64,000 nucleotides of DNA from Sinonovacula constricta. Taxonomy: Eukaryota > Mollusca > Bivalvia > Cardiida > Solecurtidae. The notes below the pieces were generated by a model that made no database searches, was not told the origin of the DNA, and saw only the letters and a program-made list of their open reading frames with translations. A program made the position numbers and the translations under genes. The stretch spans positions 15,316,399-15,380,398 of the forward strand of contig CM017564.1 in the NCBI GenBank assembly GCA_007844125.1, in the 5' to 3' direction. Positions 9,001 to 64,000 of the stretch are shown here, piece by piece. Within the stretch, counting starts at the first letter, position 1. Every line of letters begins with the position of its first letter.

Positions 9001-12000
9001 CAGGTAGTCTGGGATCTTCCTCCACTGAAATAGCTGGTAGTCTGGGATCTTCCTCCATTGAAATAGCTGGTAGTCTGGTATCTTTCTCTACTGAAATAGC
9101 TGGTAATCTGGGATCTTCCTCCACAGAAATAGCCGGTGGTCTGGGATCTTCCTCCACTGAAATAGCTGGTAGTCTGGGATCTTCCTCCACTGAAATAGCT
9201 GGTAGTCTGGGATCTTCCTCCACTGAAAAAGCTGGTAGTCTGGGATCTTCCTCCACTAAAATAGCTGGTAGTCAGGGATCTTCCTCCACTGAAATAGCTG
9301 GTAGTCTGGGATCTTCCTCCACTGAAATAGCTGGTAGTCTGGAATCTTCCTCTACTGAAATAGCTGGTAGTCTGGGATCTTCCTCCACTGAAATAGCTGG
9401 TAGTCAGGGATCTTCCTCTACTGTAATAGCTGGTAGTCACTAGCATTATTATAATTGGTTGATGCAAAGAATTTAATGAGATTATTCTCTTCTATACAGT
9501 TCAGCTGACAGGCGCAGGATCCAACCCCCTTCAGTATGTGGATTCTATACTGACAGAAACTCATGTCACTGAGAGCCGCGGCCCAGAATCAACAGGTGAG
9601 AATCAGCATGTGGATTCTATACCTCCAGATACTCGTGTCACAGAGAGGCGCGGCCCAGAATCAACAGGTGAGACATTTATTTCCATTCCTTTTCTGTGCG
9701 GTTGATGACCCTGAAAGTTGTGAATACGCTACCACACCCAGTCACATTAACGTCATGACATACTTTCAGTATTAGCACATACCAAGAGTTCACTGCCTGG
9801 GGCCAGAGCGTAGGCTTGCAGATCGGGAGGTCATGGATTCAAATCCCGGCCGGGTCAAACCACAGACTTTAAAGTTGGTAATAGTGTCTTCCCTCCTAAC
9901 GCTTGGGCTAAGATGACAGCATTACGCCTGACTCGTCGGAGTCAGTATAATGGACCAGCCAGGTTCAGTCCCTGGGCACCTCATACGTGCCCCTGTGCTA
10001 TAATGATAGAAATGTTGCTGCACAGTATCAGCAAAAATGCCGATTAATCCCATCCCATACCAGAACCAAAAGTGAATACATGACATCGGATATAATGTGA
10101 CTATGTGTTCTATCCTGTGAAGTATACACAGTGAATATAGCATTATATCTGCTTTAAATGGACACCATTTTCAAACAATTGATAAACTGTTGGTGGGACG
10201 ATAAACCCAGTGACCAGAAGACGAACAAATTTCATATGGGTGCTATGTTGAGAGACTTTTGTTTTCTAGAGATGATCAAGTGTAAATACTGCGCACATCA
10301 ATTCTGGCTGGATTCAGTACCAGGAAATGCACGTACCAATATTGATGAACAGTGTGTGCTAGAGATGTTTGTTGCTGACATTGAAAATAAATTAAATTAC
10401 CAGTCTCATATTTCTTCATACTTTGTTGTATTGGTTCAAGAAGAATTAGGTAAACATTTAACTCGGCGAGAACTTCATTCCCAGTTGTAAGTATATAGTG
10501 TTTATATGGCTCATCCAATAAATACACGTAAGGGAGATACATAATGTGATTCGACATATAACACCCCATCCTAAATATAAAAGACGGAATTTCAATAAAA
10601 TAATTGAAACAACAACAACAACACTATACTAATTTCACATTGACAGCCCAAATACCCGCCAATGAGCAAGAAACGCAGTCCCCAGATGATAGCCCACTGG
10701 TCACTGACACGTACGTCCTCCGCAACATCACCTCAGACAAAGAGTTGGCCTTTAAAACCAACCTGGACTCCGCAGATGCATACAGAGAAAAGGTAAGGTC
10801 ATCTTTGTTGATTTGAAAATTAGAACAAGTTTCTCAAGAAACAAGATTTCAAGTTACAAAATATTATTTTTTACTGCAGGAACATTCAGAGACAGTCTTT
10901 GACTAAGAAGTTAAAGTCCATGACTTGTTACTCCTTAGTCCTTTACTTCAGTGCAAGAACTTACATTAAGTTATATCTTCCAATTTGCCATGCATCAGTG
11001 GTTCTACCCAGATTTTTGTCTGTGATCTTCTCTGCCAGTAATTAACTGGAGGTTGCCATTAAGATTATAATTGTGTTGGTGAGGTGTTACAAAAAAACAT
11101 ATAGGGAAAAAGTAAACTCCTTGTACATATTTGTTTTAAAATATCTTTAAAAAAGAACATGCTTAAAATGCTAGTATGGTAAAACAATCACAGAGAAACT
11201 GAAGTGTTTGGTTAAATGTGAACTATTTTAATCACTGTTTCAGGTTAAATTGCTAAGAAAGTGTTTGAATACAGACAATAACATTTTTTTCTGGTTCTGC
11301 AGCCACATAAAGGGAAATAATGCCTACACTATTCCTGTGAACTTAGCATTCGATTATTGGTCAAAAACTAAATCAAAGAGAAAAAGAGTGAACAGTAACA
11401 AAATGTGCTCAGTTTGGTAAGTGATAGGGTTGAGGGTCCAACCTGTTGTTGTCTTTGCCACAATTGGTTCAGGGTCATTCACTTAACTTTGGAAAACATT
11501 TCTAAACACCTTGAATGGATGTTCTTGGTCAAATGGTTTAAGTGACTCGCCCCTTGTGCGCCTTGTGGGAATTAAGCCCAAGTCTGGTAAAAATCTTGAT
11601 TTGGTGGGATGTCTTTAAATTGACCTTTCCTCAGATGAGCTGTAGCCTTGCCTACCATAGCAACAGGTCCTCACTGTAACTAGGTTAGACAAACATTGAC
11701 CAAAATGGCCAATAAAAATGTTTACATTGTATTGTAGTGGGTATTTAATAAAAATCTGGCTCTTCAATAATGTATAGCTTCGTGGTTCTTATTCAAAAGA
11801 ATTCCACAGTTTTTTAGGAAAGGGGTTAATAAACAGAATAAATATTAGTTTATGTTCACCTTAAATCTAATAATTAATAAAGCCTTTTTTGTGTTTTAGC
11901 ATCAGCAGAATGAATATTCCTCTAACAACGGTAAAATTCATTTGAAGCCTGACACTTTATGTAAATAAGATTATATTGTATTATTTTGAAAGTAATTTTG

Positions 12001-15000: not shown

Positions 15001-18000
15001 AAGTCATTGGCTTTACAAGTCAACAACTATATCACTATGTCATGGGCGCCCCTTTCAGAAGGTAGCTGTTATAGGCAGTACAAGTCCACAACTCTACCAC
15101 TATGTCATGGACACCCCTTTCAGAAGGTAGCTGTCATAGGGATTACAAGTCCACAACTCTATCACTATGTCAAGGGCGACCCTTTCAGAAGGAAGAAGTC
15201 ATTGGCATTACAAGTCAGCAACTCTAACACTATGTCATGGGCGCTCCTTTCAGAAGGTAGCTGTCATAGGCATTACAAGTCAGCAACTCTACCACTATGT
15301 CATGAGCACCCCTTTCAGAAGGTAGCTGTCATAGGCATTACAAGTCGGCAACTCTACCACTGTCATGAGCGACCCTTTCAGATGGCAGCAGTCATAGGGA
15401 ACACATTTGATAATTCACAAAATTATCTGTCGGCTGTAAAAGGGGAAAAGTATTCACAAACATACAAAGCTGTTCCTTATGACCTCATGAAAACAATAAG
15501 AAGCATAAAGATTTCATAGCTTAAATGCTTATATGATTGAAATTTAAGAACTTCCTTCTGTCATAGTAAATATTTCAAACATTTATTATCTAGTGGTAAA
15601 CATGTTAGATCAGGATCAGAGTGACCTGTGTTCAGACGTGAGGTACACTACAAGATGTTGATCTTAGGGCAAGTGAGTCGCTGACTTGAAGCTACTCCGC
15701 CAATAACTGTGTGGGTTGGAGTCCCCGTCGGGCTTTCCGGCTAACCTGCGGTGTGGTGGTTGTTCTCCCCAGACATAAGTCTGGGATCTTCCTCCACCAA
15801 TAATTAGCTGAGCATCGACAATATGACCATAATTGTGTCAATGCGCTGTAACAAAAAACAACAACAAACAAATTTACTGCACGTTGCCCAAAGCAGTTAC
15901 TTCCTTCATGTACACAGGTTCTACATTGTTAGTTTGAGAGAAATAAAAAAAATAAAAGTATATTTTCAAATTTCATTCCGCAGCATATAATTGTTTTAAA
16001 AATTGCAATATTGGTTATATTCATTTTAAAATATTACACATGTATATGTAATCCTTAACATTCAATAACTACTTGTGTTACATAATCGCTCGTCCCAGCT
16101 AAAAACTGAAATATAAAAAATCAAACCAAAGTATATTTATGTTTGTTTCTATGGCAATAGATCTTGAAGAATCACCCAGACGATGGTTTCTCATTGGTCC
16201 ATCTGGCATTCATAGAAAAAACTGAGAACCAGAATTATGTCAAGAGTATCGAGCTGTTTTCCCGAGGACTGGCAATGAATGGAGAGGGTGTACATCAGGG
16301 AAAGTTTTACCATCACTATGGGGATGCATATATACGTCTACAACAACCAGACAAGGTACATTTTCGTCTTGTGTCATAGATTTCTCATCATTTCTGTAAG
16401 ACTGAGAGACTTTAAAACTTCTTTAGTTCTAACAAGTCAAGATAGAAGTTTTCGTGTAGGCCCTTACAAGTCAAGATAGAAGCTTTCATGTAGGCCCTTA
16501 TAAGTCAAGAAGAAAGCTTCCATGTAGGCCCTTACAAGTCAAGATGAAATCATTCTGTAGGCCATTTACAAGTCAAGATGGAAGCTTTCATGGAGGCCCT
16601 TACATGTCAAGTTGGAAGCTTTCATGGAGGCCCTTACATGTCAAGATGGAAGCTTTCATGTAGGCCCTTACAAGTCAATATGAAAGCTTTCATGGAGACC
16701 CTTACAGGTCAATATGAAAGCTTTCATGGAGACCCTTACAAGTCAATATGAAAGCTTTTATGTAGGCCCTTACAAGTCAAGGTAGAAGCTTTCATGGAGA
16801 CCCTAACAAGTCAAGATGGAAGCTTTCATGGAGGCCCTTACAAGTCAAGATGAAAGCTTTTATATAGGCCCTTTCAAGTCAACACGAAGCTTTCATGTAG
16901 GCACTTACAAGTCAAGATGAAAGCTATCATGTAGGACCTTACAAGTCAAGATAAAAGCTTTCATGTAGGCCCTTGCAAGTCGTGATGAAAGCTTTCTTGT
17001 AAGCCCTTACACGTCAAGAAAGAAGCTTTCACGGAGTCCCTTACAAGTCTAGATGGAAGCTTTCATGGAGACCCTTACACGTCAAGATAGAAGCATAATA
17101 AGCAATTAGAAACAAGTCACATATTAAGCAATAAGCAACAAAACATATTACTTTAAATTGACTTATGCTTGTAACATATTTGTAATTTTTTTGTGCAGTT
17201 TACTAAGTGTTAACTTGCCACAGCCTTGCCTGTGCACACATCTAGAATATATACTAGTCTTAATAGTTCTCTGTTTAGGCAAGGGAGGTGTTTGCAGAGG
17301 CCAAGAGACGTGGATTATTTTTCTCCGAGGATCAGAGATCCCTCTACAATGCTGACCGCCCTTTGACTGCTCGACCTGTCTGGACCGCAGAGCAGACTGG
17401 CTACCAGCGGTATATACAGGTGAGAAACATCACTGTACAGACTGGCTACCAGCGGTATATACAGGGGAAGAACATCACTGCACCAAACTGATTTATATTG
17501 AGTGAACAGACTTTTATTATAGAGTGACTCCCATTAATTCTCATTTTGGAACTACTACCCTGGATAGTCTTCCCTTAGTACTCAGACAGGAACTACTATA
17601 TTTTTTTGTAGGAACTGCGATACTGGATTCGGCCGCCTTAGTTCTCAGATAAGAACTCCTATCCTTGGATTGTTCCCCCTAGTACTCATATAGGAACTAC
17701 CATCCTGGATTGCCCCCCTTAGTACTCATAAGAACTATTATCCTGGATTGTTCCACTTAGTACTCACATACGAACTACTGTCCTGGATTGTCCCCTTAGT
17801 ACTCATATGAACTACTGTCCTGGATTGTCCCCCTTAGTACTCATATGAACTACTATTCTGGATTGTCCCCCTTAGTTTTCATATGAACTACTATTCTGAA
17901 TTGTTCCCCTTAGTATTCATATGAACTAATATTCTCGATTCTCCCCCTTAGTACTCATATGAACTACTATCCTGGATTGTCCCCCTTAGTACTCATATAG

Positions 18001-34684: not shown

Positions 34685-34995
34685 ACCGGACCTCGTAGCG
34701 CAATCGGTTGAGCGTCGGCTCCAGGTACGGGAGACCCCGGGTTCGCTCCCGGGCCGCGACATATCAAAGTCGTCAAAATGGTAGAGGTATAGCTCTCTTG
34801 CTAACGCGCAAGCAAATATAAGGGTAGTTCCCCGACTGGTTTTCCCGGTGTCAGGATAATGTGACTGGGTGTGGTATCATGCCAGATGGTCACGGCATGC
34901 TATACACAGTAAAGGCAGCACTATGTCTGCTTTAAGATGACACCGTCTCCAGATAACAGAAATACTGTTGGTGGGACAGTAAACACAACAGACAA
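34685..34995 (+). repeat. Full-length SINE-B
   Basis: Best-preserved head: 'cctcgtagcgcaatcggttg', 'agcgtcggctcc' and 'gggttcgctcccgggccgcg'. It runs through the full body to 'gggacagtaaacacaacaga', whose A/C-rich tail passes straight into the 129-bp satellite. Confidence 0.9.
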
Positions 34996-35005
34996 CAAAC
35001 AAAGA

Positions 35006-36170
35006 AAGTGCTGGTCAGCCTCATCCTGTTTCTAACACAACACACCAATCAACACGGATTTGACAAAACATACCTTTAGAGGGGATATTGGACAGTGTGG
35101 ACCAAACAACTTTCCTCAAACAAACAAATAAAGAGAGTGCTGGTCAGCCTCATCCTGTTTCTAACACAACACACCAATCAACACGGATTTGACAAAACAT
35201 ACCATTAGAGGTGATATTGGACAGTTTGGACCAAACAACTTTCCTCAAACAAACAAATAAAGAAAGTGCTGGTCAGCCTCATCCTGTTTCTAACACAACA
35301 CACCAATCAACACGGATTTGACAAAACATACCTTTAGAGGTGATATTGGACAGTTTGGACCAAACAACTTTCCTCAAACAAACAAATAAAGAAAGTGCTG
35401 GTCAGCCTCATCCTGTTTCTAACACAACACACCAATCAACACGGATTTGACAAAACATACCTTTAGAGGTGATATTGGACAGTTTGGACCAAACAACTTT
35501 CCTCAAACAAACAAATAAAGAAAGTGCTGGTCAGCCTCATCCTGTTTCTAACACAACACACCAATCAACACGGATTTGACAAAACATACCTTTAGAGGTG
35601 ATATTGGACAGTTTGGACCAAACAACTTTCCTCAAACAAACAAATAAAGAAAGTGCTGGTCAGCCTCATCCTGTTTCTAACACAACACACCAATCAACAC
35701 GGATTTGACAAAACATACCATTAGAGGTGATATTGGACAGTTTGGACCAAACAACTTTCCTCAAACAAACAAACAAAGAAAGTGCTGGTCAGCCTCATCC
35801 TGTTTCTAACACAACACACCAATCAACACGGATTTGACAAAACATACCTTTAGAGGTGATATTGGACAGTTTGGACCAAACAACTTTCCTCAAACAAACA
35901 AATAAAGAAAGTGCTGGTCAGCCTCATCCTGTTTCTAACACAACACACCAATCAACACGGATTTGACAAAACATACCTTTAGAGGTGATATTGGACAGTT
36001 TGGACCAAACAACTTTCCTCAAACAAACAAATAAAGAAAGTGCTGGTCAGCCTCATCCTGTTTCTAACACAACACACCAATCAACACGGATTTGACAAAA
36101 CATACCTTTAGAGGTGATATTGGACAGTTTGGACCAAACAACTTTCCTCAAACAAACAAATAAAGAAAAC
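35006..36170 (+). repeat. 129-bp satellite-like array, 9 copies
   Basis: Unit start 'aagtgctggtcagcctcatc', middle 'acacaccaatcaacacggat', end 'caaacaaacaaataaagaa'. Copies are almost identical (about 1-3 changes each; spacing 128-129 bp), so the expansion is recent. Confidence 0.95.
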
Positions 36171-36274: not shown

Positions 36275-36590
36275 GAATGGATCGAATGATAGAATTGGAT
36301 CAAATGATAGAATTGGATCGATGAATGAAAGAATTGGATCAAATGATAGAATTGGATCGAATGATAGAATTGGATCGAATGATAGAATTGGATCAAATGT
36401 AGGATTGGATCAAATGATAGAATTGGATCGAATAAATGATATAATTGGATCGAATGAAAGATAGAATTGGATCGATGAATGAAATAATTGGATCGATTGA
36501 ATGAAAGAACTGGATCGAATGAAGGATAGAATTGGATCGAATGAATGATAGAATTCGATCGAATGAATGATAGAATTCGATCAAATGATA
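36275..36590. repeat. 18-22-bp GATC-containing minisatellite
   Basis: About 15 copies of 'aatgatagaattggatcg' with small length variants, between the 129-bp and 91-bp arrays. Confidence 0.92.
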
Positions 36591-38600
36591 TGTTTTACTC
36601 CCAATATCCCAAACATGGGTCAGATTGTTACATGTATTTGATAGATACCACCCTTTAGCTACGGGATGTTACTATTCAGCATGTTTTACTCCCAATATCC
36701 CAAACATGGGTCAGATTGTTACATGTATTTGCTAGATACCACCCTTTAGCTACGGGATATTACCATTCAGCATGTTTTACTCCCAATATCCCGAACAGGG
36801 GTCAGATTGTTACATGTATTTGATAGATACCACCCTTTAGCTACGGGATGTTACTATTCCGCATGTTTTACTCCCAATATCCCAAACAGGGGTCAGATTG
36901 TTACATGTATTTGCTAGATACCACCCTTTAGCTACGGGATGTTACTATTCAGCATGTTTTACTCCCAATATCCCAAACCGGGGTCAGATTGTTACATGTA
37001 TTTGATAGATACCACCCTTTAGCTACGGGATGTTACCATTCAGCATGTTTTACTCCCAATATCCCAAACAGGGGTCAGATTGTTACATGTATTTGATATA
37101 TACCACCCTTTAGCTATGGGATGTTACTATTCAGCATATTTTACTCCCAATATCCCAAACAGGGATCAGATTGTTACATGTATTTGCTAGATACCACCCT
37201 TTAGCTACGGGATGTTACTATTCAGCATGTTTTACTCCCAATATCCCAAACAGGGGTCAGATTGTTACATGTATTTGATAGATACCACCCTTTAGCTACG
37301 GGATGTTACTATTCAGCATGTTTTACTCCCAATATCCCAAACAGGGGTCAGATTGTTACATGTATTTGATAGATACCACCCTTTAGCTACGGGATATTAC
37401 CATTCAGCATGTTTTACTCCCAATATCTCAAACAGGGGTCAGATTGTTACATGTACTTGATATATACCACCCTTTAGCTACGGGATGATACTATTCAGCA
37501 TGTTTTACTCCCAATATCCCAAACATGGGTCAGATTGTTACATGTATTTGATAGATACCACCCTTTAGCTATGGGATGTTACTATTCAGCATGTTTTACT
37601 CCCAATATCTCAAACAGGGGTCAGATTGTTACATGTATTTGATAGATACCACCCTTTAGCTACGGGATGTTACTATTCAGCATGTTTTACTCCCAATATC
37701 TCAAACAGGGGTCAGATTGTTACATGTATTTGATATATACCACCCTTTAGCTACGGGATGTTACTATTCAGCATGTTTTACTCCCAATATCCCAAACAGG
37801 GGTCAGATTGTTACATGTATTTGATAGATACCACCCTTTAGCTATGGGATGTTACTATTTAGCATGTTTTACTCCCAATATCTCAAACAGGGGTCAGATT
37901 GTTACATGTATTTGATAGATACCGCCCTTAAGCTACGGGATGTTACTATTCAGCATATTTTACTCCCAATATCCCAAACAGAGGTCAGATTGTTACATGT
38001 ATTTGATAGATACCACCCTTTAGCTACGGGATGTTACTATTCAGCATATTTTACTCCCAATATCCCGAACAGGGGTCAGATTGTTACATTTATTTGATAG
38101 ATACCACCCTTTAGCTACGGGATGTTACTATTCAGCATGTTTTACTCCCAATATCCCAAACAGGGGTCAGATTGTTACATGTATTTGATAGATACCACCC
38201 TTTAGCTACGGGATGTTACTATTCAGCATGTTTTACTCCCAATATCCCAAACAGGGGTCAGATTGTTACATGTATTTGATAGATACCACCCTTTAGCTAC
38301 GGGATGTTACTATTCAGCATGTTTTACGCCCAATATCCCAAACAGGGGTCAGATTGTTACATGTATTTGATAGATACCACCCTTTAGCTACGGGATGTTA
38401 CTATTCAGCATGTTTTACTCCCAATATCCCAAACAGGGGACAGATTGTTGCATGTATTTGATATATACAACACTTTAGATACAGGATGTTACTATTCAGC
38501 ATGTTTCACTCCCAATATCCCAAACAGGGGTCAGATTGTTACATGTATTTGATAGATACCACTCTTTAGCTACGGGATGTTACTATTCAGCATGTTTGAC
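36591..38600 (+). repeat. 91-bp minisatellite, 22 copies
   Basis: Unit 'tgttttactcccaatatccc', 'aaacaggggtcagattgtta', 'catgtatttgatagatacca', 'ccctttagctacgggatg'. Start-to-start distances from 36591 to 38593 equal 22 x 91, so there is no net indel. Confidence 0.95.
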
Positions 38601-38639
38601 TCATTTTCTCATCTTCGAGAATCATACAAGTCTTGTTCA

Positions 38640-39850: not shown

Positions 39851-42800
39851 CTCAAATATTTTTTTTTATTTTTGTTTATTTTTGATAAATACGCAGGTGT
39901 TATGTTAATAGATATGATCATTAACTTGTGAATGTAGATAATCCCTGATACGAACAGAACAATCCATATTATGAATTATGAAACCACTTGGTAAAATGTT
40001 ACAATAAAGGTATAATAGTATATCGTCCCTAATGTGAATTCATTAGTTAAAATATGCATAATGCAGCTGTATTACTGTTTAATGTATTTCTCTGTACTTG
40101 TATGTAAATGCCATTTACACCTTATGTTCTGTTAGCTATATTTGTGATCGAATTTATGCCAATAAACATGCTATGTTAGGAATACTGTTTGGTCTTACAT
40201 AAACCCACGCACAGAAATCGTGGTTCTTTAACCTGTGTGCACACCATTAAACTTTTATGGAAACCAGCGAAAATGCATAAGCGCCAGTTTAATGTTGCCC
40301 AATTACAATATTGCTGCTGTTCACAAACAGAACCATTTATCGTAGTTCTCCCTTTTACTTCCATTACCGTAGACGTCCTAATGAACAATATGATTTAGTA
40401 TATATGGTATTAACGTTATGGATCTGATTACTTATTGAAAATCTCACAACGTCCATGTATAATATAACATAGGTTGACAATCATGTTTCCTATCTCGAGT
40501 CCTTGCCACCGTCTGCCTACGAATATCTCTGCCAGTAGAACCAGAGTAGCTTTCTACACGTTGTACATTGCTCTGCACATGGTCTTCACGAAGGCTACAA
40601 CATATTATTTTATCGGTATAATTGACAAACTTTCGATAAAACGCACGCGCAGCAGTTAAATGCGTAAAACTAAAGATTCTTTTTATTGGCTGACTTGTTT
40701 ACTTTTGTGAAAATACAAAGAGGCAGTTAAAAGCAGATTCCGCCACGTTTCTATTGTAGGCCTTTGTTCCATTTCCTGTGTAGATCAAATTCACATGCAT
40801 TAACTACGTGCAGCCATGTACAGTAATTATAGTCTTCCCCCTGTTTAACAACTCGTGCTCAGACCTTGAGCTCGAACCCTGGACCATCCGAGTCAGATTT
40901 CATCGCCTTAACCATTAGATCACGAATCCGGTGAAAGTGTTGCGAAGTGGTATAGTGGTCGACATGTAACTACCCGGACTGCATAGTTACTCACCGCGTT
41001 GGGTTTGAGTCCCGTTCGGGGCGAATGACTTAAAGTGAAAAAAAATCTTCCAGCTGGCGTATGGTGCGCCGGTGGTTTTACCCAGACTTCTGTCTGGGGT
41101 ATTCTTCCACAAAATAGCTGAACGGCGCTATAATTACCATAACTGGTCGTTGAGTTGTAATTAACTAACAAAAGCATAACAAATAACACACATTAACTGG
41201 ACATTACCATCAATGTTCACTTGATTGTTTGTTGTGTTGGCTTTCATCTCGTCAAACAATTCCTTAATCTCGTCGTTATCCAGAGGCTCGCCCAATTTCT
41301 TCAAGGCCACTCGGAGCTCTCTGAAATATACATGCTGGGTTATGGTCTCCAAAATGACGTGGTGTTACATTATGGTCTCTGGAATAGACCTGTTGTAAGA
41401 TTAGTTGAGGATATGAATGTGAAGATGTTAAATAATGAGTTTATGAACTTTTTCTTTGGTTTCTACGTTGTTGTTAATTGTTGTTGTTGTTATTGTCGTT
41501 TCAAATAAATATCAATGACCGCCCAGCTTATAGGCTTAAATGCATGTGCATATTAACAATTTGACGTACAAACCGCATTAGTAGGAAGTCTCCATTATCC
41601 ACAAGGTTTCTGTCCTTAAATGAAGCATGAAACCTTGTTTAAGTTTTTATTTTCTCCGCAAAATGTTGTCTCGAATCCCTTTACGCAAGCAGTACACAAT
41701 ATTTGTTATGAACCGTGCTTTTCTAAATAATCCTCGTCCAAATTATCTTTAACATCGTACAGACGTGTATATCAACACTTAGGGGGCGCCCGTGGCGTAG
41801 TGGTAGAGTCGCCGATTTATAACTCCAATGACTGCTTAGCCTCTCACCGCGTGGGCTCGAGTCCCATTTGGAGCGAAGGATTTAATGTTGAAAGGTCTTC
41901 TAGCTGACTTGCGGTGCGCTGGTGGTTCTACACAGACATGTGTCTGGGGTCTTCCACCACCAAAGAGCTGGACGTTGTTATAATGATCATAAATGGTCGC
42001 TGCAATATATTTCAAAAACAAAAACAAAACAAAATATCTACACATAATTTTAACGTATCAAACTTACTTATAATCCAGACGCCCGTTGCCATCCGAGTCG
42101 AACACAGAGAACGCCTTGCGGAGTTCCTCCTCCATTTCCTCGCGTGACTTAAGGTGGCTCGACAACAGTTCGGCGTATTCTAAGGCGTCCAGGGATTCAT
42201 TACCTAGAGCCAGGAGATGTTGTTGTTTTTTGTTGTTGTTGTTTTTAACATCATAACGACACAATTAAGGTCGTTTTGCGACGTCCTGATATTTTGGTGA
42301 AGAAGACCTTAGAAAAATGTCTGGGAAGAAGAACCAGCGCACCGCATATCAAATGGAAGATCTGCTTACAGTATGTTTGTTTGTTGGGTTTATCGTCCCA
42401 CCAACAGTATTTCGGTTATCTGGAGATGGTGTCCACTTGAAGTAGATATAGAACTGCCTTCACCGTGCACAGCATGCCGTGAACAACTCGCTTGATACCA
42501 CACCCAGTCACATTATCCTGACACCATGCCAACTAGTCGTGGAACTACAATTAAATTTGCTTGAGCGTTAGCAAGGGAGCTATGTCACTACCATTTTAAA
42601 CTCGAACTCAGGGCCTCCCGTACCTACATCCGACGCTCTACCGATTGTATTGTGTTGTATTAAGATGGTAAAGATTTATTGTGATGTTAAATCAGATTTT
42701 TACGTTATTCGTTTTTTTTTCATTTTGTTTAGTCATATATTGGAGTGTATTCGATTATTTCTATTTTTCGCATGCATCTTATGGGTATTGTGCAACTATG

Positions 42801-45800
42801 TTTAGATGTATTCTGCTTGTTGTAGACCTATTTTGTGTTTCTGTGATTTCTATGTGCTATTTGATGTCTCGGTGTATATTTTCAATGTTGTTTTGTTTTG
42901 CTTTTTTTTGTAAGTAGGAGCTCTCTATATTCCATATGCTATCGACCTTCTGTTGATTTTAGTATTTCATATGTCATCTACATTTTCTTATTTATCTGTC
43001 TACAATCTATTGTTTGTGTTTTTATTTCGCTTATTTTTTTTTTATGTGCCTAAGTTGTATATACTCCTGATTCTAGGGCGCCGTAGCAGAGTGCTAAAGT
43101 CGTGTCTTGTAACTCACTGCTTAGCCTCTCACCGCGTTGGTTCGAGTCCCGTTCCGGGCGGATGTCTTAATGTGGAAAGATCTTTCAGTTGGCGTGTGGT
43201 GCGCCGGTGGTTCTATCCAGACATGTGTCTGGGGTCTTCCGCCACTAAACAGCTGCTATAATGATCATAAATGATCGCTGCAGTGTATTTCATAAACAAC
43301 AACAACAACACAAGGCTTAACAGAAAATACACACTAAATCACAGGAAGGACTCACCGTCTTTGTCTGCCGCCTCGAAGATCCGCCTCACTTCCCGATCAC
43401 TTGGGTTCTGACACAACATCTGCAACAGTCGCTTGACCTCATTGAACGACAGTTTCCCGTCAGAATCCACATCTAGCAAGTCAAACGCATCCTTCACCTC
43501 TGAAACAAGAATTGATTTATTGGTTTTGAAACAAGAAGTGATTGATTTCGTTTTGAAACAAGAGGTGGTGGTTTTGGTTTTGAAACTAGAAGTGGTGGGT
43601 TTTGTTTTAAAACAAGAAGTGATTGATTTCGTTTTGAAACAAAACGTGGTGGGTTTGGTTTTGAAACAAGAAGTGGTGGGTTTGGTTTTGTAATGATCTG
43701 ATATTCTATCAAATACATGCAGTTGAATAATATACAAAACACTTAATGACAGTGTGGGATTTTTTCAATACGCGTTTTGGTATTATCATCAAAGGATGTT
43801 TTTAATTTTCATCAACACTTAAATGACTAACTCTTATAAAAATAAAAGTAACATTACAAAAATCATCGTTAAATCATCGCAATTATGGTCGATGCGAGGG
43901 CTTTCCTGTGTGTGTGTGGGGGGGGGGGGATCCAGCTAACAGGTCACCCTCCTCCAATAATTGTCTGCATGCCGCCACTATGTCCTTTGTTGGGAAAATG
44001 TCAATGCATTTTATCTTTTAAACAACAATTAAATGATGTGAACAGAGAATATTGGATGTATTTCTTTTTGGTTTGTTTTAAGTTCCTCCTTACAAGGACG
44101 ATGGTTTTTGCTCATGAACTCACCTGCAACAATGTCTCTGTTTTCTCATGAACTCACCTACAACAATGGCTCTGTTTTCTCATGAACTCACCTACAACAA
44201 TGTCTCTGTTTGCTCATGAACTCACCTACAACAATGTCTCTGTTTTCTCATGAACTCACCTACAACAATGGCTCTGTTTTCTCATGAACTCACCTACAAC
44301 AATGGCTCTGTTTTCTCATGAACTCACCTACAACAATGGCTCTGTTTTCTCATGAACTCACCTACAACAATGGCTCTGTTTTCTCATGAACTCACCTACA
44401 ACAATGTCTCTGTTTTCTCATGAACTCACCTACAACAATGTCTCTGTTTTCTCATGAACTCACCTACAACAATGTCTCTGTTTGCTCATGAACTCACCTA
44501 CAACAATGTCTCTGTTTTCTCATGAACTCACCTACAACAATGGCTCTGTTTTCTCATGAACTCACCTACAACAATGTCTCTGTTTTCTCATGAACTCACC
44601 TACAACAATGTCTCTGTTTTCTCATGAACTCACCTACAACAATGGCTCTGTTTTCTCATGAACTCACCTACAACAATGTCTCTGTTTTCTCATGAACTCA
44701 CCTACAACAATGTCTCTGTTTTCTCATGAACTCACCTACAACAATGTCTCTGTTTTCTCATGAACTCACCTACAACAGTGTCTCTGTTTTCTCATGAACT
44801 CACCTACAACAATGTCTCTGTTTTCTCATGAACTCACCTACAACAATGTCTCTGTTTTCTCATGAACTCACCTACAACAATGGCTCTGTTTTCTCATGAA
44901 CTCACCTACAACAATGTCTCTGTTTTCTCATGAACTCACCTACAACAATGTCTCTGTTTTCTCATGAACTCACCTACAACAATGTCTCTGTTTGCTCATG
45001 AACTCACCTACAACAATGGCTCTGTTTTCTCATGAACTCACCTACAACAATGGCTCTGTTTTCTCATGAACTCACCTACAACAATGGCTCTGTTTTCTCA
45101 TGAACTCACCTACAACAATGTCTCTGTTTTCTCATGAACTCACCTACAACAATGGCTCTGTTTTCTCATGAACTCACCTACAACAATGGCTCTGTTTTCT
45201 CATGAACTCACCTACAACAGTGTCTCTGTTTTCTCATGAACTCACCTACAACAATGTCTCTGTTTTCTCATGAACTCACCTACAACAATGTCTCTGTTTT
45301 CTCATGAACTCACCTACAACAGTGTCTCTGTTTTCTCATGAACTCACCTACAACAGTGTCTCTGTTTTCTCATGAACTCACCTACAACAATGTCTCTGTT
45401 TTCTCATGAACTCACCTACAACAATGGCTCTGTTTTCTCATGAACTCACCTACAACAATGGCTCTGTTTTCTCATGAACTCACCTACAACAATGTCTCTG
45501 TTTTCTCATGAACTCACCTACAACAGTGTCTCTGTTTTCTCATGAACTCACCTACAACAATGTCTCTGTTTTCTCATGAACTCACCTACAACAGTGTCTC
45601 TGTTTTCTCATGAACTCACCTACAACAATGTCTCTGTTTTCTCATGAACTCACCTACAACAGTGTCTCTGTTTTCTCATGAACTCACCTACAACAATGTC
45701 TCTGTTTTCTCATGAACTCACCTACAACAGTGTCTCTGTTTTCTCATGAACTCACCTACAACAGTGTCTCTGTTTTCTCATGAACTCACCTACAACAATG

Positions 45801-46278
45801 TCTCTGTTTTCTCATGAACTCACCTACAACAGTGTCTCTGTTTTCTCATGAACTCACCTACAACAATGTCTCTGTTTTCTCATGAACTCACCTACAACAA
45901 TGGCTCTGTTTTCTCATGAACTCACCTACAACAATGGCTCTGTTTTCTCATGAACTCACCTACAACAATGTCTCTGTTTTCTCATGAACTCACCTACAAC
46001 AGTGTCTCTGTTTTCTCATGAACTCACCTACAACAATGTCTCTGTTTTCTCATGAACTCACCTACAACAGTGTCTCTGTTTTCTCATGAACTCACCTACA
46101 ACAATGTCTCTGTTTTCTCATGAACTCACCTACAACAGTGTCTCTGTTTTCTCATGAACTCACCTACAACAATGTCTCTGTTTTCTCCATATTTTCTTAG
46201 TTTCTCTAAAACTTCTTGTGTTGCGTCCACTTGTTCACCTCTACCAGGCTTTTGTTTGGCAGTCGTTTCCGATGCCAT
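39792..46278 (-). CDS. Calmodulin-like EF-hand protein gene (5 coding exons, spliced)
   Basis: Predicted calcium sensor, probably cytosolic (no signal peptide or membrane helix). Minus-strand exons 46278-46164, 43499-43356, 42203-42068, 41320-41208 and 39850-39792 join in phase to 567 nt, 188 aa. EF1 loop D48-E59 (DVDSDGKLSFNE) and EF3 loop D122-E133 (DSDGNGRLDYKE) are canonical. EF2 loop D84-E95 (DKDGNESLDALE) lacks the usual Gly at position 6. EF4 (about 159-170, NNQVNIDG) lacks acidic ligands and is probably dead. A basic/polar N-terminal extension of about 40 aa precedes EF1. Exons 1-4 are secure; the last exon rests on phase and on QVNIDGFLVTLL resembling the calmodulin end. It could be called a calmodulin, troponin-C or calcineurin-B-like protein; I cannot choose. 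Intron 1 carries the 61-copy donor array. Confidence 0.82.
39860..40855. other. Part of the EF-hand gene's last intron, nothing recognised
   Basis: AT-rich with no SINE or array. Open frames at 40176-40398 on both strands match no family I know. Confidence 0.4.
40860..40935 (-). repeat. tRNA-like SINE head of another family
   Basis: On the minus strand, 'gatctaatggttaaggcgat' resembles box A and 'cagggttcgagctc' box B. It lies head to head with SINE-A at 40940. An intact tRNA cloverleaf could not be confirmed, so it is not called a tRNA gene. Confidence 0.5.
40940..41160 (+). repeat. SINE-A copy in the EF-hand intron
   Basis: 'gaagtggtatagtggtcgac', 'gggtttgagtcccgttcggg', 'gtgcgccggtggttttaccc', 'tcttccacaaaatagctgaa'. 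It ends just beyond the exon 4 donor, so that intron begins almost inside the SINE. Confidence 0.88.
41208..41320 (-). CDS. EF-hand gene exon 4
   Basis: Encodes KELRVALKKLGEPLDNDEI KELFDEMKANTTNNQVNID. The acceptor is tatatttcag (phase 2) and the donor is GATG|gtaatg (phase 1). It covers the EF3 exit helix, the linker and a degenerate EF4. Confidence 0.9.
41783..42035 (+). repeat. SINE-A copy, near consensus
   Basis: 'gggggcgcccgtggcgtagt', 'ggtagagtcgccgatttata', 'gcgtgggctcgagtccc', 'gcgctggtggttctacacag', 'agagctggacgttgttataa'. This is the reference used here for SINE-A head and core. Confidence 0.92.
42068..42203 (-). CDS. EF-hand gene exon 3 (end of EF2, EF3 loop)
   Basis: Encodes NESLDALEYAELLSSHL ... 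AFSVFDSDGNGRLDY. The acceptor is ggctctag (phase 1) and the donor is TATAA|gtaagt (phase 2). SREEMEEELRKAF is the E helix before EF3. Confidence 0.93.
42240..42360 (-). repeat. SINE-A 3' part
   Basis: Reverse complement of the SINE-A tail ('aattaaggtcgttttgcgac', 'ttggtgaagaagacctt', 'agcgcaccgcata'), next to EF-hand exon 3. Confidence 0.75.
42370..42665 (-). repeat. SINE-B copy
   Basis: Reverse-oriented: 'gggtttatcgtcccaccaac' (3' end), 'gcttgataccacacccagtc', 'agcgttagcaagggagctat', then the head complement 'agggcctcccgtacctacat'. Confidence 0.88.
43070..43310 (+). repeat. SINE-A copy
   Basis: 'gggcgccgtagcagagtgct', 'ggttcgagtcccgttccggg', 'gtgcgccggtggttctatcc', 'gggtcttccgccac', with an 'acaacaacaacac' tail. 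45 bp from EF-hand exon 2. Confidence 0.88.
43356..43499 (-). CDS. EF-hand gene exon 2 (EF1 and start of EF2)
   Basis: Encodes EVKDAFDLLDVDSDGKLS ... RRIFEAADKD. The acceptor is cttgtttcag|AGGTG and the donor is AAAGACG|gtgagt, phase 1 at both ends. It has one complete canonical EF loop and splits the second. Confidence 0.93.
43500..43690 (-). repeat. 27-bp minisatellite (7 copies) at the EF-hand exon 2 acceptor
   Basis: Plus-strand unit 'gaaacaagaagtggtgggtt' plus 'tggtttt'. The copy touching the exon supplies the acceptor (minus-strand cttgtttcag). The other six read cttgtttcaa or a close variant, so they lack AG. Confidence 0.9.
44107..46187 (-). repeat. 34-bp array, 61 copies, each with a 5' splice site
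   Basis: Minus-strand unit: 24 nt of exon 1 end (GAGAAAACAGAGACATTGTT, GTAG) plus the first 10 intron nt (GTGAGTTCAT). The 'catgaact' block runs from 44113 to 46153, exactly 60 x 34, so there is no net indel. Variants ('aatgtctctg', 'aatggctctg', 'agtgtctctg', 'tttgctc') leave the donor intact. Confidence 0.97.
46164..46278 (-). CDS. EF-hand gene exon 1
   Basis: Starts ATG GCA TCG (MASETTAKQKPGRGE) and ends GACATTGTTGTAG|gtgagt, phase 1. It encodes residues 1-38 with a predicted helix VLEKLRKYG. The last 24 nt plus the first 10 intron nt are the unit of the downstream 34-bp array. The G left over joins AG of exon 2 to give Glu39, which supports this donor. Confidence 0.8.
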
Positions 46279-46290
46279 GTCTTTTACTAT

Positions 46291-46430
46291 CTTTTAATTG
46301 GCGTGTATCTCCGTTAATTGGCGTGTATCTTCGTTAATTGGCGGGTATCTCCGTTAGTTGGCGTGTATCCCCGTTAATTGGCGTGTTTCTCCGTTAATTG
46401 GCGGGTCCCTCCGTTAGTTGGCTTGTATGA
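46291..46430 (-). repeat. 20-bp minisatellite (7 copies) just upstream of the EF-hand start codon
   Basis: Plus-strand unit 'ggcgtgtatctccgttaatt' with exact 20-bp spacing (46300, 46320 ... 46420). It sits in the 5' UTR or proximal promoter. A regulatory role is possible but not shown. Confidence 0.92.
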
Positions 46431-55800: not shown

Positions 55801-58800
55801 TTTTAATCAATAACACTTTTTTGAGTGATAAGATATTAAAAACGGAACAGATAGACAGAAAGATGACGGGCGGACTGAAAAAGTCAGCTTGACAAGAAGT
55901 CGGTCACACGAACAAGGAGCGTACAGGGTGCTGGTGGTGATATAAGTGACACAGACAGGCAGTAGACAGTAGCTGATTGAGATGATTCAAACATAATGTT
56001 ATACTTTGTAATAATATATTGTGTATACCAGTACATACTAACAATTAAACTGACTTTGTAGGCTTGGAGCTAATTGTATTTACAACAAGCGAGCAAAAAT
56101 GATTATATCTTTAATTTTAACAAATGCCACCATTTTAAAGACAACATACGGGTGACATTACTTATGAGTCAGTCATTGTACAAACATTCAAATAGACATA
56201 TGGACAGGTGGACACTATATGAAGACCTACTTGGAACCGGCAGTGTTGATCTGTATATCGGGGGCCGTCAGTCTGTTTACGTCCGCATTCCATATGTCCT
56301 GTACCACAGAGCTAAGGGTCTGACTGCTGGGAGCTGGGCAAGGAATACAGAAGCAGAGGTACACGACTTCGTTGGGGCGCTCGTAAGATCAGAACATCTT
56401 GTTTAGGCTCATGTGTCAGTCAGGTGAAAATACATTATGCATGAAAGACTTCCAGATTTCATGGATCGATGTTCTAATAAAAAATGTTCTCAACCATTTA
56501 TAGCTGGATCTTGTTGAAATGGCCACAAATGTGTCGATGCGATATATCTTTAAATGGATCCAATATAGTAATAATAAATATTTACTAACAAAACACTGTT
56601 TTTATTTCAGCCACTGAGAACGAGACATATGTTGTGATTTTAACAAGAGCTCACACGCTATTAAAAGCGGTATTCGACAGTTAAGACATGTTTCTGAAAA
56701 GATCCTGCGGAACGTTTTTTATTGGTGACCGACATCTATGTTCAAGGACCCCCCTTGGCGTAGTGGTAAAGTCGCTGATTTGTAACTTCTCTGACTACTT
56801 AGCCTCCCACCGAGTGGGTTCCATTCCCGCTCTGGGCGAAGGACTTAATGTGTGAAGGTTGTGCAGGTGACCTGCTGTGCGCCGGTGGTTCTACACGGAC
56901 ATGTGTCTGGGGTCTTCCTCCACCAAACAGCTGGACGTCGTCATAATGATCATAACTGGCTACTGCGATGCAACTAAAACGCAACAACCACCCCTACCCC
57001 CAAACAATCCGTACGAAAATATTTTTGCATGCATTTGATATCGATAAACTTTCAGATACCACTTTAAACAATATACATGTTCATGTCTCCCGACAATGAG
57101 TTAAGATGTTTAAGTTTATGTTTCCGGAATGAAAAGTATAAATATGCGTAAAACGGAAGACTAATTAAAATGCACTTGTAACGACGATGTACAATGTACA
57201 AGTCAATTATTATCCACTTTTCTCTTGTTTGCATTTCCCATGCGTCCAAAGAAAATTCGTTTCTGCTCTCTTGTTATAATATATCATTCCGGTTTCTACA
57301 TCATCGTAGTTTAGCTAAGGACGTCTCACCTGAGTAAATGGCACATTGTGGAACAAATGATGATGATGATGTTGATGATGATCCGGTATCACAATGCAAT
57401 ACACCCTTCTAAGACTGATGACGACTTTATTGTTTGTTTAAATGATGGTATCTCATGATTTCAGGTAATACAGTTATTTCATGGTTGTAACATATACATA
57501 ACATGTATAGGAAAGATTTCATAAATTCATATATTATTGACTCATATAAACAATATATAAACAATGAACAATGTACCCAAGGTCTAAAGACAATATGTAA
57601 AGTCTATCATGAAAAATGTATAGCACATAATGCATGAACAGTATCTCCCTTGTTTGCAAGTTTACCAGAATTTAAACTTAATTCTAAACTCGAATAAACA
57701 TATTATTGACAAGTGTTGCTGTCATTTATGTAAGAAAACCTTCTAAAAACAAAATAAGATGACTTACACGACAAGACGAGTCCTAAAAGTGGAAGGAAAT
57801 ACAAACAAATATACAGCGTTGTGGAACACATCTTTTACCGCCCTAACCGGTGTCATCATAAATGTAACACGACCATAAACAATATGTTACAATGAAGAAG
57901 AAGAAGGTGAAGAAAAAGAAAAAGAAAAAAGAAGACAAAGAAGAAGAAGAAAAACATGATGATGAAGGTGATGATGATGTTGATGAAGATGATGATGATG
58001 TTACCTTGAGTGGTAGCTCCGTGACACAGTGACTCGTAGTTAGGACAGCAGTCTGCATACGTGTAACAATTATGGTCACATTGGCACGGTTTACTGTTGT
58101 CGTACGGCGTCTCGCATCGGCCGGCACAAGACGCTGTTGGGGGAAAAGATCGAGTCACCGTAAATAATGAAATGAATATCAGAAAATCGTCCGAAATAAA
58201 GTCGTGATTTCCGACCATGTCCGAAATAAACTCGTCATTTCCGTCCAAAATCAAGTTGTGATTTCCGGTTATGTCCGAAATAAAGTCGTGATTTCCGGCC
58301 ATGTCCGAAATAAAGTCGTGATTTCCGGCCATGTCCGAAATAAAGTCGTGATTTCCAGTCATGTCCGAAATAAAGTCGTGATTTCTGGCCATGTCCTAAA
58401 GGTTATGACGATGATAATTCTATAGTTCCAGTCGAGGCGATATTTTTCCAATTTGTTGATGTCGCACAACTTACGTGCTGGGCTTCGATGATTCGTCTCA
58501 AACACGTGGGGTTGCAATCAACCAATTGTAGGCGGACGTCACGATAATGACGTTTAGAAGTATATAATGAATAACAGATGTGTCCCTGTGTTTTTTTAGC
58601 ATTCACAAACTGAGAACAAAAACAATTATGCCGTCGCTTCGATGAATAACATGACTAACCTACAAGATTCAGCTCTTATTAGCAACTATAACTCATTTCG
58701 TAACTCCTTGCTAATGACTTCTTCACCATTATCGGATGTATAAATTAGAAACATAATTGTTAACAACTCGGGAACTATGAAGTACCAAATAGTCACTTAA

Positions 58801-61920: not shown

Positions 61921-62059
61921 TAGCTGCATTAGTAGTAGAATTAGTGGCAAAAAGTAGTGTTGTTTCTGTTGTGGTCATTCTTGTTTTCATTGTTGTTGTT
62001 ATAATGGGAGTTGTTGTTACTGTTTTCGTTATATTGTTAGTGTAATTATTATTATTGTT

Positions 62060-64000
62060 GTTGCTGGAGTGACATAAGTGGTAGTGATGGTTGTTGCTGG
62101 TGTGACATACGTGGTAGTGATGGTTGTTAATGGTGTGACAGAAGTGGTAGTGATTGTTGTTGCTGATGTGACAGAAATGGTTGCGATGGTTGTTGCTGGT
62201 GTGACAGATTTGGTAGAGATGGTTGTTGCTGGTGTGACAGAAGTGGTAGTGATGGTTGTTGCTGATGTGAAAGAAGTGGTTGTGATGGTTGTTGCTGGTG
62301 TGACAGAAGTGGTAGTGATGGTTGTTGCTGATGTGAAAGAAGTGGTAGTGATGGTTGTTGATGATGTGACAGAAGTGTTAGTGATGGTTTGTTGTTGGTG
62401 TGACAGAAGTGGTAGTTATGGTTGTTGCTGATGTGAAAGAAGTGGTTGTGATGATTGTTGCTGGTGTGACAGAAGTGGTAGTGATGGTTGTTGCTGGTGT
62501 GACAGAAGTGGTAGTGATGGTTGTTGCTGGTGTGACAGAAGTTGTAGTGATGGTTGTTGCTGGTGTGACAGAAGTTGTAGTGATGTTTTTTGCTGATGTG
62601 ACCGAAGTGGTACAGTTGTTGCTGGTGTGACAAAAGTGGTAGTGATGGTTGTTGCTGGTGTGACAGAAGTGGTACGGTTGTTGCTGGTGTGACAGAAGTT
62701 GTAGTGATGGTTGTTGCTGATGTGACAGAAGTTGTAGTGATGTTTTTTGCTGATGTGACCGAAGTGGTACAGTTGTTGCTAGTGTGACAAAAGTGGTAGT
62801 GATGGTTGTTGCTGGTGTGACAGAAGTGGTACGGTTGTTGCTGGTGTGACAGAAGTTGTAGTGATGGTTGTTGCTGGTGTGACAGACGTGGTGGTAATGG
62901 TTGTTGCTGATGTGACAGAAGTGGTAGTGATGGTTGTTGCTGGTGTGACAGAAATGGTTGTGATGGTTGTTGCTGATGTGACAGAAGTGGTAGTGATGGT
63001 TGTTGATGATGTGACAGAAGTGTTATTGATGGTTGTTGTTGGTGTGACAGAAGTGGTAGTGATGGTTGTTGTTGGTGTGACAGAAGTGGTAGTGATGGTT
63101 GTTGTTGGTGTGACAGAAGTTGTAGTGATGGTTGTTGCTGGTGTGACAGATTTGGTAGTGATGGTTGTTGCTGGTGTGACAGAAGTGGTAGTGATGGTTG
63201 TTGCTGATGTGAAAAAAGTGGTTGTGATGGTTGTTGCTGGTGTGACAGAAGTGGTAGTGATGGTTGGTGCTGGTGTGACAGAAGTTGTAGTGATGGCTGT
63301 TGCTGGTGTGACAGAAGTGGTTTTTATGGTTGTTGCTGATGTGAAAGAAGTGGTTGTGATGGTTGTTGCTGGTGTGACAGAAGTGGTAGTGATGGTTGTT
63401 GCTGGTGTGACAGAAGTTGAAGTGATGGTTGTTGCTGATGTGACAGAAGTGGTACCGTTGTTGCTGGTGTGACAGAAGTTGTAGTGATGGTTGTTGCTGT
63501 TGTGACAGAAGTTGTAGTGATGGTTGTTGCTGATGTGAAAGAAGTGGTTGTGGCGGTTGTTGCTGGTGTGACAGAAGTGGTAGTGATGGTTGTTGCTGGT
63601 GTGACAGAAGTGGTACGGTTGTTGCTTGTGTGACAGAAGTGGGAGTGATGTTTGTTGCTGGTGTGACAGACGTGGTGGTGATGGTTGTTGCTGATGTGAC
63701 AGAAGTGGTAGTGATGGTTGTTGCTGGTGTGACAGAAGTGGTAGTGATGGTTGTTGTTGGTGTGACAGAAGTGGTAGTGATGGTTGTTGCTGGTGTGACA
63801 GAAGTGGTAGTGATGGTTGTTGCTGATGTGACAGAAGTGGTAGTGATGGTTGTTGCTGGTGTGACAGAAGTGGTAGTGATGGTTGTCGCTGGTGTGATAG
63901 AAGTGGTAGTGATGGTTGTTGTTGGTGTGATAGAAATGGTTGTGATGGTTGTTGCTGATGTGACAGAAGTGGTAGTGATGGTTGTTGCTGGTGTAACAGA
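62060..64000 (+). repeat. 33-bp minisatellite, runs past the window end
   Basis: Unit 'gtgacagaagtggtagtgat' plus 'ggttgttgctgat', with deletion variants ('gtggtacggttgttgctgg'). About 58 copies within the window. Because 33 bp is 11 codons, both strands stay open over long runs (VTEVVVMVVAG on plus). Deletions of non-multiples of three break the frame repeatedly, so no gene is called. Confidence 0.95.

Follow-up and report, generated by a model that had tools for sequence, protein, structure and literature searches.

Sixty-one tandem copies of an exon 1/intron 1 boundary in a predicted EF-hand gene of the bivalve Sinonovacula constricta

Introduction

How is one 5′ splice site chosen when a transcript offers dozens of almost identical ones? 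Competition between 5′ splice sites has mostly been studied with two sites in minigenes. We analysed a stretch of 64,000 nt from the genome of the bivalve Sinonovacula constricta (assembly GCA_007844125.1, contig CM017564.1, positions 15,316,399 to 15,380,398; hereafter the window, to which all coordinates below refer), in which the end of the first coding exon of a predicted EF-hand gene is repeated, together with its splice donor, in 61 evenly spaced and near-identical copies. The readout at this locus would be one correct product against 60 frame-broken ones, and the locus represents an unusually extreme natural test of splice-site selection among many sites. We argue below that the array is probably a young, mostly neutral minisatellite spanning the exon-intron boundary, which is tolerated because its first donor remains functional.

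Results

What does the array consist of? On the minus strand, from 46187 to 44114, an in-register cut yielded 61 full copies of a 34-bp unit, and the 34-nt spacing was never broken. On the transcribed strand each unit (array at 44114..46187) is composed of GAGAAAACAGAGACATTGTTGTAG and GTGAGTTCAT, that is, 24 nt of the end of exon 1 and 10 nt of the start of intron 1. At the intron-side end, a partial copy of 7 nt, GAGCAAA (44107..44113, minus strand), is followed by unique intron (GAGCAAAAACC). Tandem Repeats Finder (TRF) reported the array at 44107-46187 with a period of 34, 61.2 copies, 97% matches and 0% indels, so that the copy number and indel-free spacing of the original prediction, made from the letters of the same DNA, were reproduced by both methods. 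This regularity is far above chance expectation, and the unit of 34 bp falls within the size range of 6-100 bp that a passage of PMC12771815 gives for minisatellites.

The exon-copy sequence was matched exactly in 27 of the 61 units and with a single-base difference in the other 34, the variation being confined to columns 4, 13, 16 and 22 (3, 17, 13 and 1 copies, respectively). The donor, AG followed by GTGAGT, is kept in all 61 units, as had been predicted. The sole change within the extended donor is a T-to-C substitution at position -3 of copy 61, which reads GCAG/GTGAGT (the slash marks the exon-intron boundary). Every unit therefore supplies AGGT, in the form TTGTAG/GTGAGT in 60 of the 61 and TTGCAG/GTGAGT in one. 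Searches of viral contigs and of bacterial and archaeal genome contigs, in sets that may omit records close to the genome of the window, returned no exact match to the unit, and few would be expected for a eukaryotic sequence. The predicted folding energies of one, two, three and five units were -3.6, -10.1, -22.2 and -41.5 kcal/mol, calculated without shuffled controls; pairing between units might mask donors, and we draw no reading from these energies. A second 34-bp array in the window (16432-17094) was considered as a relative of the donor array and rejected, as its consensus differs by eye.

To which gene does the repeated boundary belong? The exons joined from the window give a complete predicted protein of 182 aa, encoded on the minus strand in five coding exons with canonical GT-AG sites. 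Exon 1 (46164..46278) starts with an ATG at 46278 and contributes 38 codons and one nucleotide, its last 24 nt being the exon part of array copy 1; the exon-proximal donor GTGAGT occupies 46158..46163. By coordinate arithmetic, intron 1 (43500..46163) measures 2664 bp, of which the array takes up 2050 bp, and it would measure 624 bp minus the 60 extra copies. Exon 2 (43356..43499) is preceded by the acceptor TTGTTTCAG and opens with AGGTG. Exons 3 (42068..42203) and 4 (41208..41320) follow, and exon 5 (40554..40594) runs through the stop codon behind an acceptor that ends ATATGTTGTAG, similar to ACATTGTTGTAG within the array; the coordinates of exons 1 and 5 are those of their coding parts only. 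When a 170-aa model comprising exons 1-4, with the last exon absent, was searched, it matched PF13499 in two stretches corresponding to paired EF-hand domains (E 2.6e-24), and the best 60 of 520 matches to solved chains were calmodulins, calmodulin fusions or their relatives. The predicted product is a calmodulin-like EF-hand protein.

The gene model can be compared with a close relative. In a protein search the 170-aa model was 95% identical to P0001, a protein of 182 aa encoded on a public contig of 1495 bp, and the full model aligned with P0001 without a gap over all 182 residues, 8 of which differ; P0002, the sole further match within the limit of the search, showed 32% identity. Of the eight differences, five fall among exon 1 residues 1-21, and the stretch that the unit encodes is identical in the two proteins. 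P0001 reads GENRDIVV-EVKDAF, which is the junction of the exon-proximal donor with the exon 2 acceptor. Because P0001 contains this junction, exon 1 can be taken as the first coding exon, and the exon-proximal junction as productive in a close relative. The contig is most simply a spliced transcript, because it encodes the whole protein, for which the window gene, introns included, takes up 5.7 kb; a retrocopy or a compact gene would be the alternatives. The array thus covers the end of exon 1 and repeats a donor whose junction agrees with P0001. The assignment of the unit to the exon 1/intron 1 boundary of an EF-hand gene, as originally proposed, stands, and a different first exon found no support in the comparison with P0001.

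What would each donor produce? Translation with all 61 donors gave the 182-aa protein from donor 1, a frameshifted product of 55 aa from donor 2, and a product of 50 aa from donors 3-61 (59 of the 61). With the modelled exon 2 acceptor, a productive product is predicted from the exon-proximal donor only, the other 60 truncating the protein, which bears out the earlier expectation of frameshifts and early stops. Among public predicted proteins we found none of fitting length with three words in common with the 50-aa product, a weak negative given that the set was clustered at 90% identity and that retention of such short open reading frames is uncertain. The predicted U1 pairing energy was -10.8 kcal/mol for the first donor and -12.4 kcal/mol for copy 61, compared with -9.4, -5.6 and -5.3 kcal/mol for donors 2-4 of the gene. 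By these energies donor 1 is the strongest real donor of the gene, repeated 60 times downstream. In selection among competing donors, bound factors such as SRSF1 matter besides strength, according to a passage of PMC5585400, and the donor used among the 61 is therefore not readable from sequence.

Does the integrity of the donors reflect selection? The four variable columns would miss the eight core positions (-2 to +6) by chance with P=0.32, and would all land in the 24 exon columns with P=0.23. The intactness of the donors is no evidence of selection, and four variable columns give no power either way. The order of the variants is informative about how the array grew. Unit types 1-11 recur as units 15-25, and none of 2000 shuffles of unit order reached such a block, a lenient control in that it ignores the local alternation of types; this repeat points to growth via multi-unit blocks. 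The C at column 16 is restricted to copies 2-42, and the sole -3 change occurs in the last copy. Such polarity of variants is typical of minisatellites. On its exon side the array starts with GAGAAAACAG and on its intron side it carries on as GAGCAAAAACC; before expansion, these would have been spaced 34 nt apart across the junction. The C that the intron has at column 4 is present in three copies. The partial copy GAGCAAA is the probable microhomology partner of the exonic GAGAAAACAG, and a short imperfect repeat at the exact period would be the usual substrate for a first tandem duplication.

How unusual is the array in its setting? Twenty-five arrays, picked from 61 TRF rows, fill 31.5% of the window, and a copy matching at 24 of 30 positions lies within 400 bp of 951 of 3000 random plus-strand positions (window-wide, array interiors included). 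In the EF-hand gene and the aspartyl/asparaginyl beta-hydroxylase (ASPH) gene together, tandem-duplicated donors numbered 2 of 13 at 24 of 30, or 3 of 13 with a 72-bp case at 22 of 30, the 13 donors being 14 listed positions of which two are alternatives of one exon; no duplicated acceptor was found among the 14 checked in these two genes. Because arrays and random-position copies are so common, 2 (or 3) duplicated donors in 13 are not unusual in the window. Boundary duplication recurs here as a by-product of tandem duplication and is not specific to the EF-hand gene. Two further arrays adjoin the latter. One, whose 27-bp unit repeats the tract region in about seven copies (43501..43690, minus strand; TRF), abuts the 3′ splice site of intron 1; at the position of the acceptor TTTCAG its copies read TTTCAA or TTTTAA and so have no AG there. 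The other, of 20 bp and 6.8 copies (46294..46428; TRF), lies directly upstream of the start codon.

The ASPH gene, on the plus strand, extends to about 25.5 kb. From 12.5 kb onward its exons have homology support, including that from a human query, and the best matches among its relatives are 46-50% identical, the best named one being from Lamellibrachia satsuma (45%). Model exons at 3674, 9500 and 10647 were placed via open frame and matching phase, which leaves the gene start and the 9500 exon less certain. A 30-bp repeat open in the model frame (PDNNASPRTR, about four copies; 3716-3842, plus strand) lies ahead of a hydrophobic segment. At donor 17420, where the exon end is supported by alignment to P0003, a 2 x 45-bp duplication (17393..17480, plus strand) comprises 27 nt of exon end and 18 nt of intron. 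The 27 exon bases are identical between the copies; three of the four differences fall in the six donor columns and break the donor of the second copy, which reads GGGAAG in place of GTGAGA. The 2 x 72-bp duplication (9531..9673, plus strand), in an exon called by frame and phase with no strong homology, contains an exon end and donor, with 24 codons in frame and both GTGAGA donors intact; the copies differ at 9 of 72 positions, and the exon would end at 9595 or 9667. The two donors are candidates for an in-frame alternative pair of the kind known from the human gene IFI6, and P0003 at residues 105 to about 170 is too dissimilar to show which of the two donors relatives use.

Elsewhere in the window, a 33-bp array at 8150-9438 has a unit (GTCTGGGATCTTCCTCCACTGAAATAGCTGGTA) that, by eye, is similar to a portion of the interspersed repeats found near 43215-43260 and 41930-41990, and it looks as if it had grown from a piece of a mobile element. 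A 129-bp array of 9 copies (34994-36168, minus strand) shows a mean pair identity of 98.9%; the copies that were read contain donor-like AAAG/GTATGT or AATG/GTATGT, and no exon was recognised there. On the minus strand at about 58018-58131 there is a Somatomedin B domain (PF01033, E 1.9e-11), beyond which a long 33-bp array (62057-64000) has long open stretches in several frames. Known RNA families and tRNA genes gave no hit at threshold in the window (ARAGORN on its bacterial setting).

Discussion

How might 61 donors have come to stand where one would suffice? We infer that the two members of a short imperfect repeat lay 34 nt from each other at the ancestral exon 1/intron 1 junction, the exon holding GAGAAAACAG and the intron GAGCAAAAAC, and that mispairing of the two duplicated the junction. 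Blocks of several units would then have been gained through unequal exchange or slippage, raising the copy number to 61; all copies except the exon-proximal copy would now be intronic. Coding constraint would hold that copy in place, so that the productive donor stays there, and a young, homogenised array would explain why the other 60 donors are intact. They would be tolerated as long as enough protein is made, either because splicing uses the first donor or because failed transcripts are removed. The original prediction had named a recent expansion among several options, and our results support this one.

Several observations weigh against this account. The far copy is predicted to pair with U1 slightly more strongly than the first (-12.4 versus -10.8 kcal/mol) and, since bound factors also take part in the choice (as a passage of PMC5585400 indicates), it is not certain that the first donor is used. 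In the 45-bp duplication of the ASPH gene the extra donor has decayed, three of the four differences being concentrated in the 6 donor columns out of 45 (nominal P=0.005, post hoc). The decay suggests that a decoy donor can be a disadvantage, and 60 intact decoys would then be less expected. Boundary duplication affected none of the 14 acceptors and a minority of the donors checked, and the junction in P0001 would say nothing about the presence of an array in the relative's own gene.

Could the array be harmless for another reason, namely that splicing erases it? The AG/GT of each unit resembles a ratchet point, an acceptor joined to a donor, and splicing from donor 1 to any unit would remake the same donor. 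Because a wrongly extended exon ends in AG, a second splice from donor 1 would exactly remove the extension and restore the frame; errors would be correctable and the array harmless. All 60 possible extensions are indeed bounded by GT and AG, additional donors lie 34, 68 and more nt downstream of each unit, and each unit holds one match to the branch-point motif yUnAy (TTCAT), its A 25 nt upstream of the AG end. The acceptor of the unit has 6 pyrimidines in 17, equal to acceptor 4 of the gene, which likewise ends GTTGTAG; by the same measure, a crude one, its tract is weak against those of acceptors 1-3 (10-11 of 17). Any tandem duplication of AG/GT has the extension-removal property automatically, and an intron of one unit, at 34 nt, is very probably below workable size. 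Ratchet points in Drosophila, as outlined in a passage of PMC8605326, likewise place a donor directly next to an acceptor and have a cryptic exon, about 50 nt long, that ends in a downstream donor. On the whole we think it unlikely that the array erases itself in this way. In a related reading, the units would act as zero-length exons and, whichever donor was chosen first, successive GT-to-AG steps would collapse the whole array to the correct end of exon 1, a self-correcting ladder that we likewise regard as doubtful.

The copy number was read from the assembled sequence, and the assembly might have inflated or altered an array of truly few copies. An array of about 2.1 kb would fit within a single long read, provided that the assembly was built from such reads, and its variant order is structured, with an 11-unit block and a polarised distribution that do not amount to clean repeats of one segment; an artefact of this kind appears very unlikely. 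Selection for regulation, by U1 titration or by an output set through copy number, with the extended isoforms serving as decoys for nonsense-mediated decay, would draw on 61 donors with good predicted U1 pairing and on the early stops that 60 of them give. No evidence was found for the U1 sink or length-dependent regulator that the original prediction had also offered; the donor columns show no constraint, in a test without power (P=0.32), and equally long arrays, compared by length only, occur elsewhere in the window (e.g., 18975-21427 and 36590-38602), so that we judge selected regulation highly improbable. Least credible, and in our view scarcely to be entertained, is a generator of additional protein isoforms: donors within repeat units are the architecture of IFI6, yet 34 is not a multiple of 3, and in-frame isoforms were rejected because, when joined to the modelled exon 2 acceptor, each of the 60 alternative donors yields a truncated protein. 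We return to the young boundary-spanning minisatellite as the most plausible explanation.

What would follow from these readings? If the array is truly neutral, the selection of donors early in a transcript is robust. If it erases itself, AG/GT duplications at the ends of exons can spread, and make introns longer, without harm; and if the ladder operates, AG/GT splice-site minisatellites could expand limitlessly and free of cost. The two ASPH duplications, one with a broken second donor and the other in-frame with two intact donors, offer natural comparisons within the same window.

How does the locus compare with known systems? The original prediction stated that no such locus was known to its author, and this needs correction, as a minisatellite supplying multiple splice donors was reportedly described in human IFI6 (6-16, G1P3) by Turri, Cuin and Porter in 1995 (NAR 23:1854). 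According to a passage of PMC4526556, two downstream repeat units of IFI6 are used as donors, giving three mRNA species, and a passage of PMC3618361 cites the IFI6 work for interference with gene splicing. IFI6 is the closest known system, and intron gain by tandem duplication of AGGT the second. In both IFI6 and the EF-hand gene a minisatellite offers many donors in one transcript; unlike IFI6, whose unit measures 12 bp and stays in frame, the EF-hand locus has a frame-breaking 34-bp unit, 61 copies and, by translation, one productive donor. New with respect to IFI6 are the frame-breaking period, the copy number, and the combination of AG/GT with a branch-point match in each unit, by which extensions could in principle be removed by splicing without trace in the mature mRNA. 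We found no description of the EF-hand donor array itself in the open-licence literature that we searched, and in the passages of PMC12771815 and PMC11506328 that mention them, "splice donor sites" refers to transposable elements, not minisatellites.

Intron gain by tandem duplication of an AGGT segment is illustrated, in a passage of PMC4974935, by the Rogers model, ATP2A1, the fission yeast genes SPOG_01682/SOCG_00815 and potato RdRp. The same passage describes multiple 24-bp AGGT copies in the fission yeast cases, with the intron across four or two of them, and a duplication in potato RdRp that spans an intron-exon boundary. As in those cases, a short AG/GT segment was duplicated in tandem; in contrast to them, the EF-hand locus duplicates an existing exon end and donor and lengthens an existing intron, a new intron being no part of our reading. 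Recursive-splicing ratchet points share the juxtaposed AG/GT with downstream donors, and the unit has the AG/GT and a yUnAy match, with a tract equal to that of acceptor 4 and below those of acceptors 1-3. The fly ratchet points, as a passage of PMC8605326 states, show good conservation and occur within long introns, whereas those of the array would be tandem and near-identical, with a weak tract. Finally, the array resembles intronic minisatellites in the homogeneity of its copies, in block duplication, and in having its only unshared variant in the intron-side end copy. It differs from them in that its unit contains coding sequence and a splice donor.

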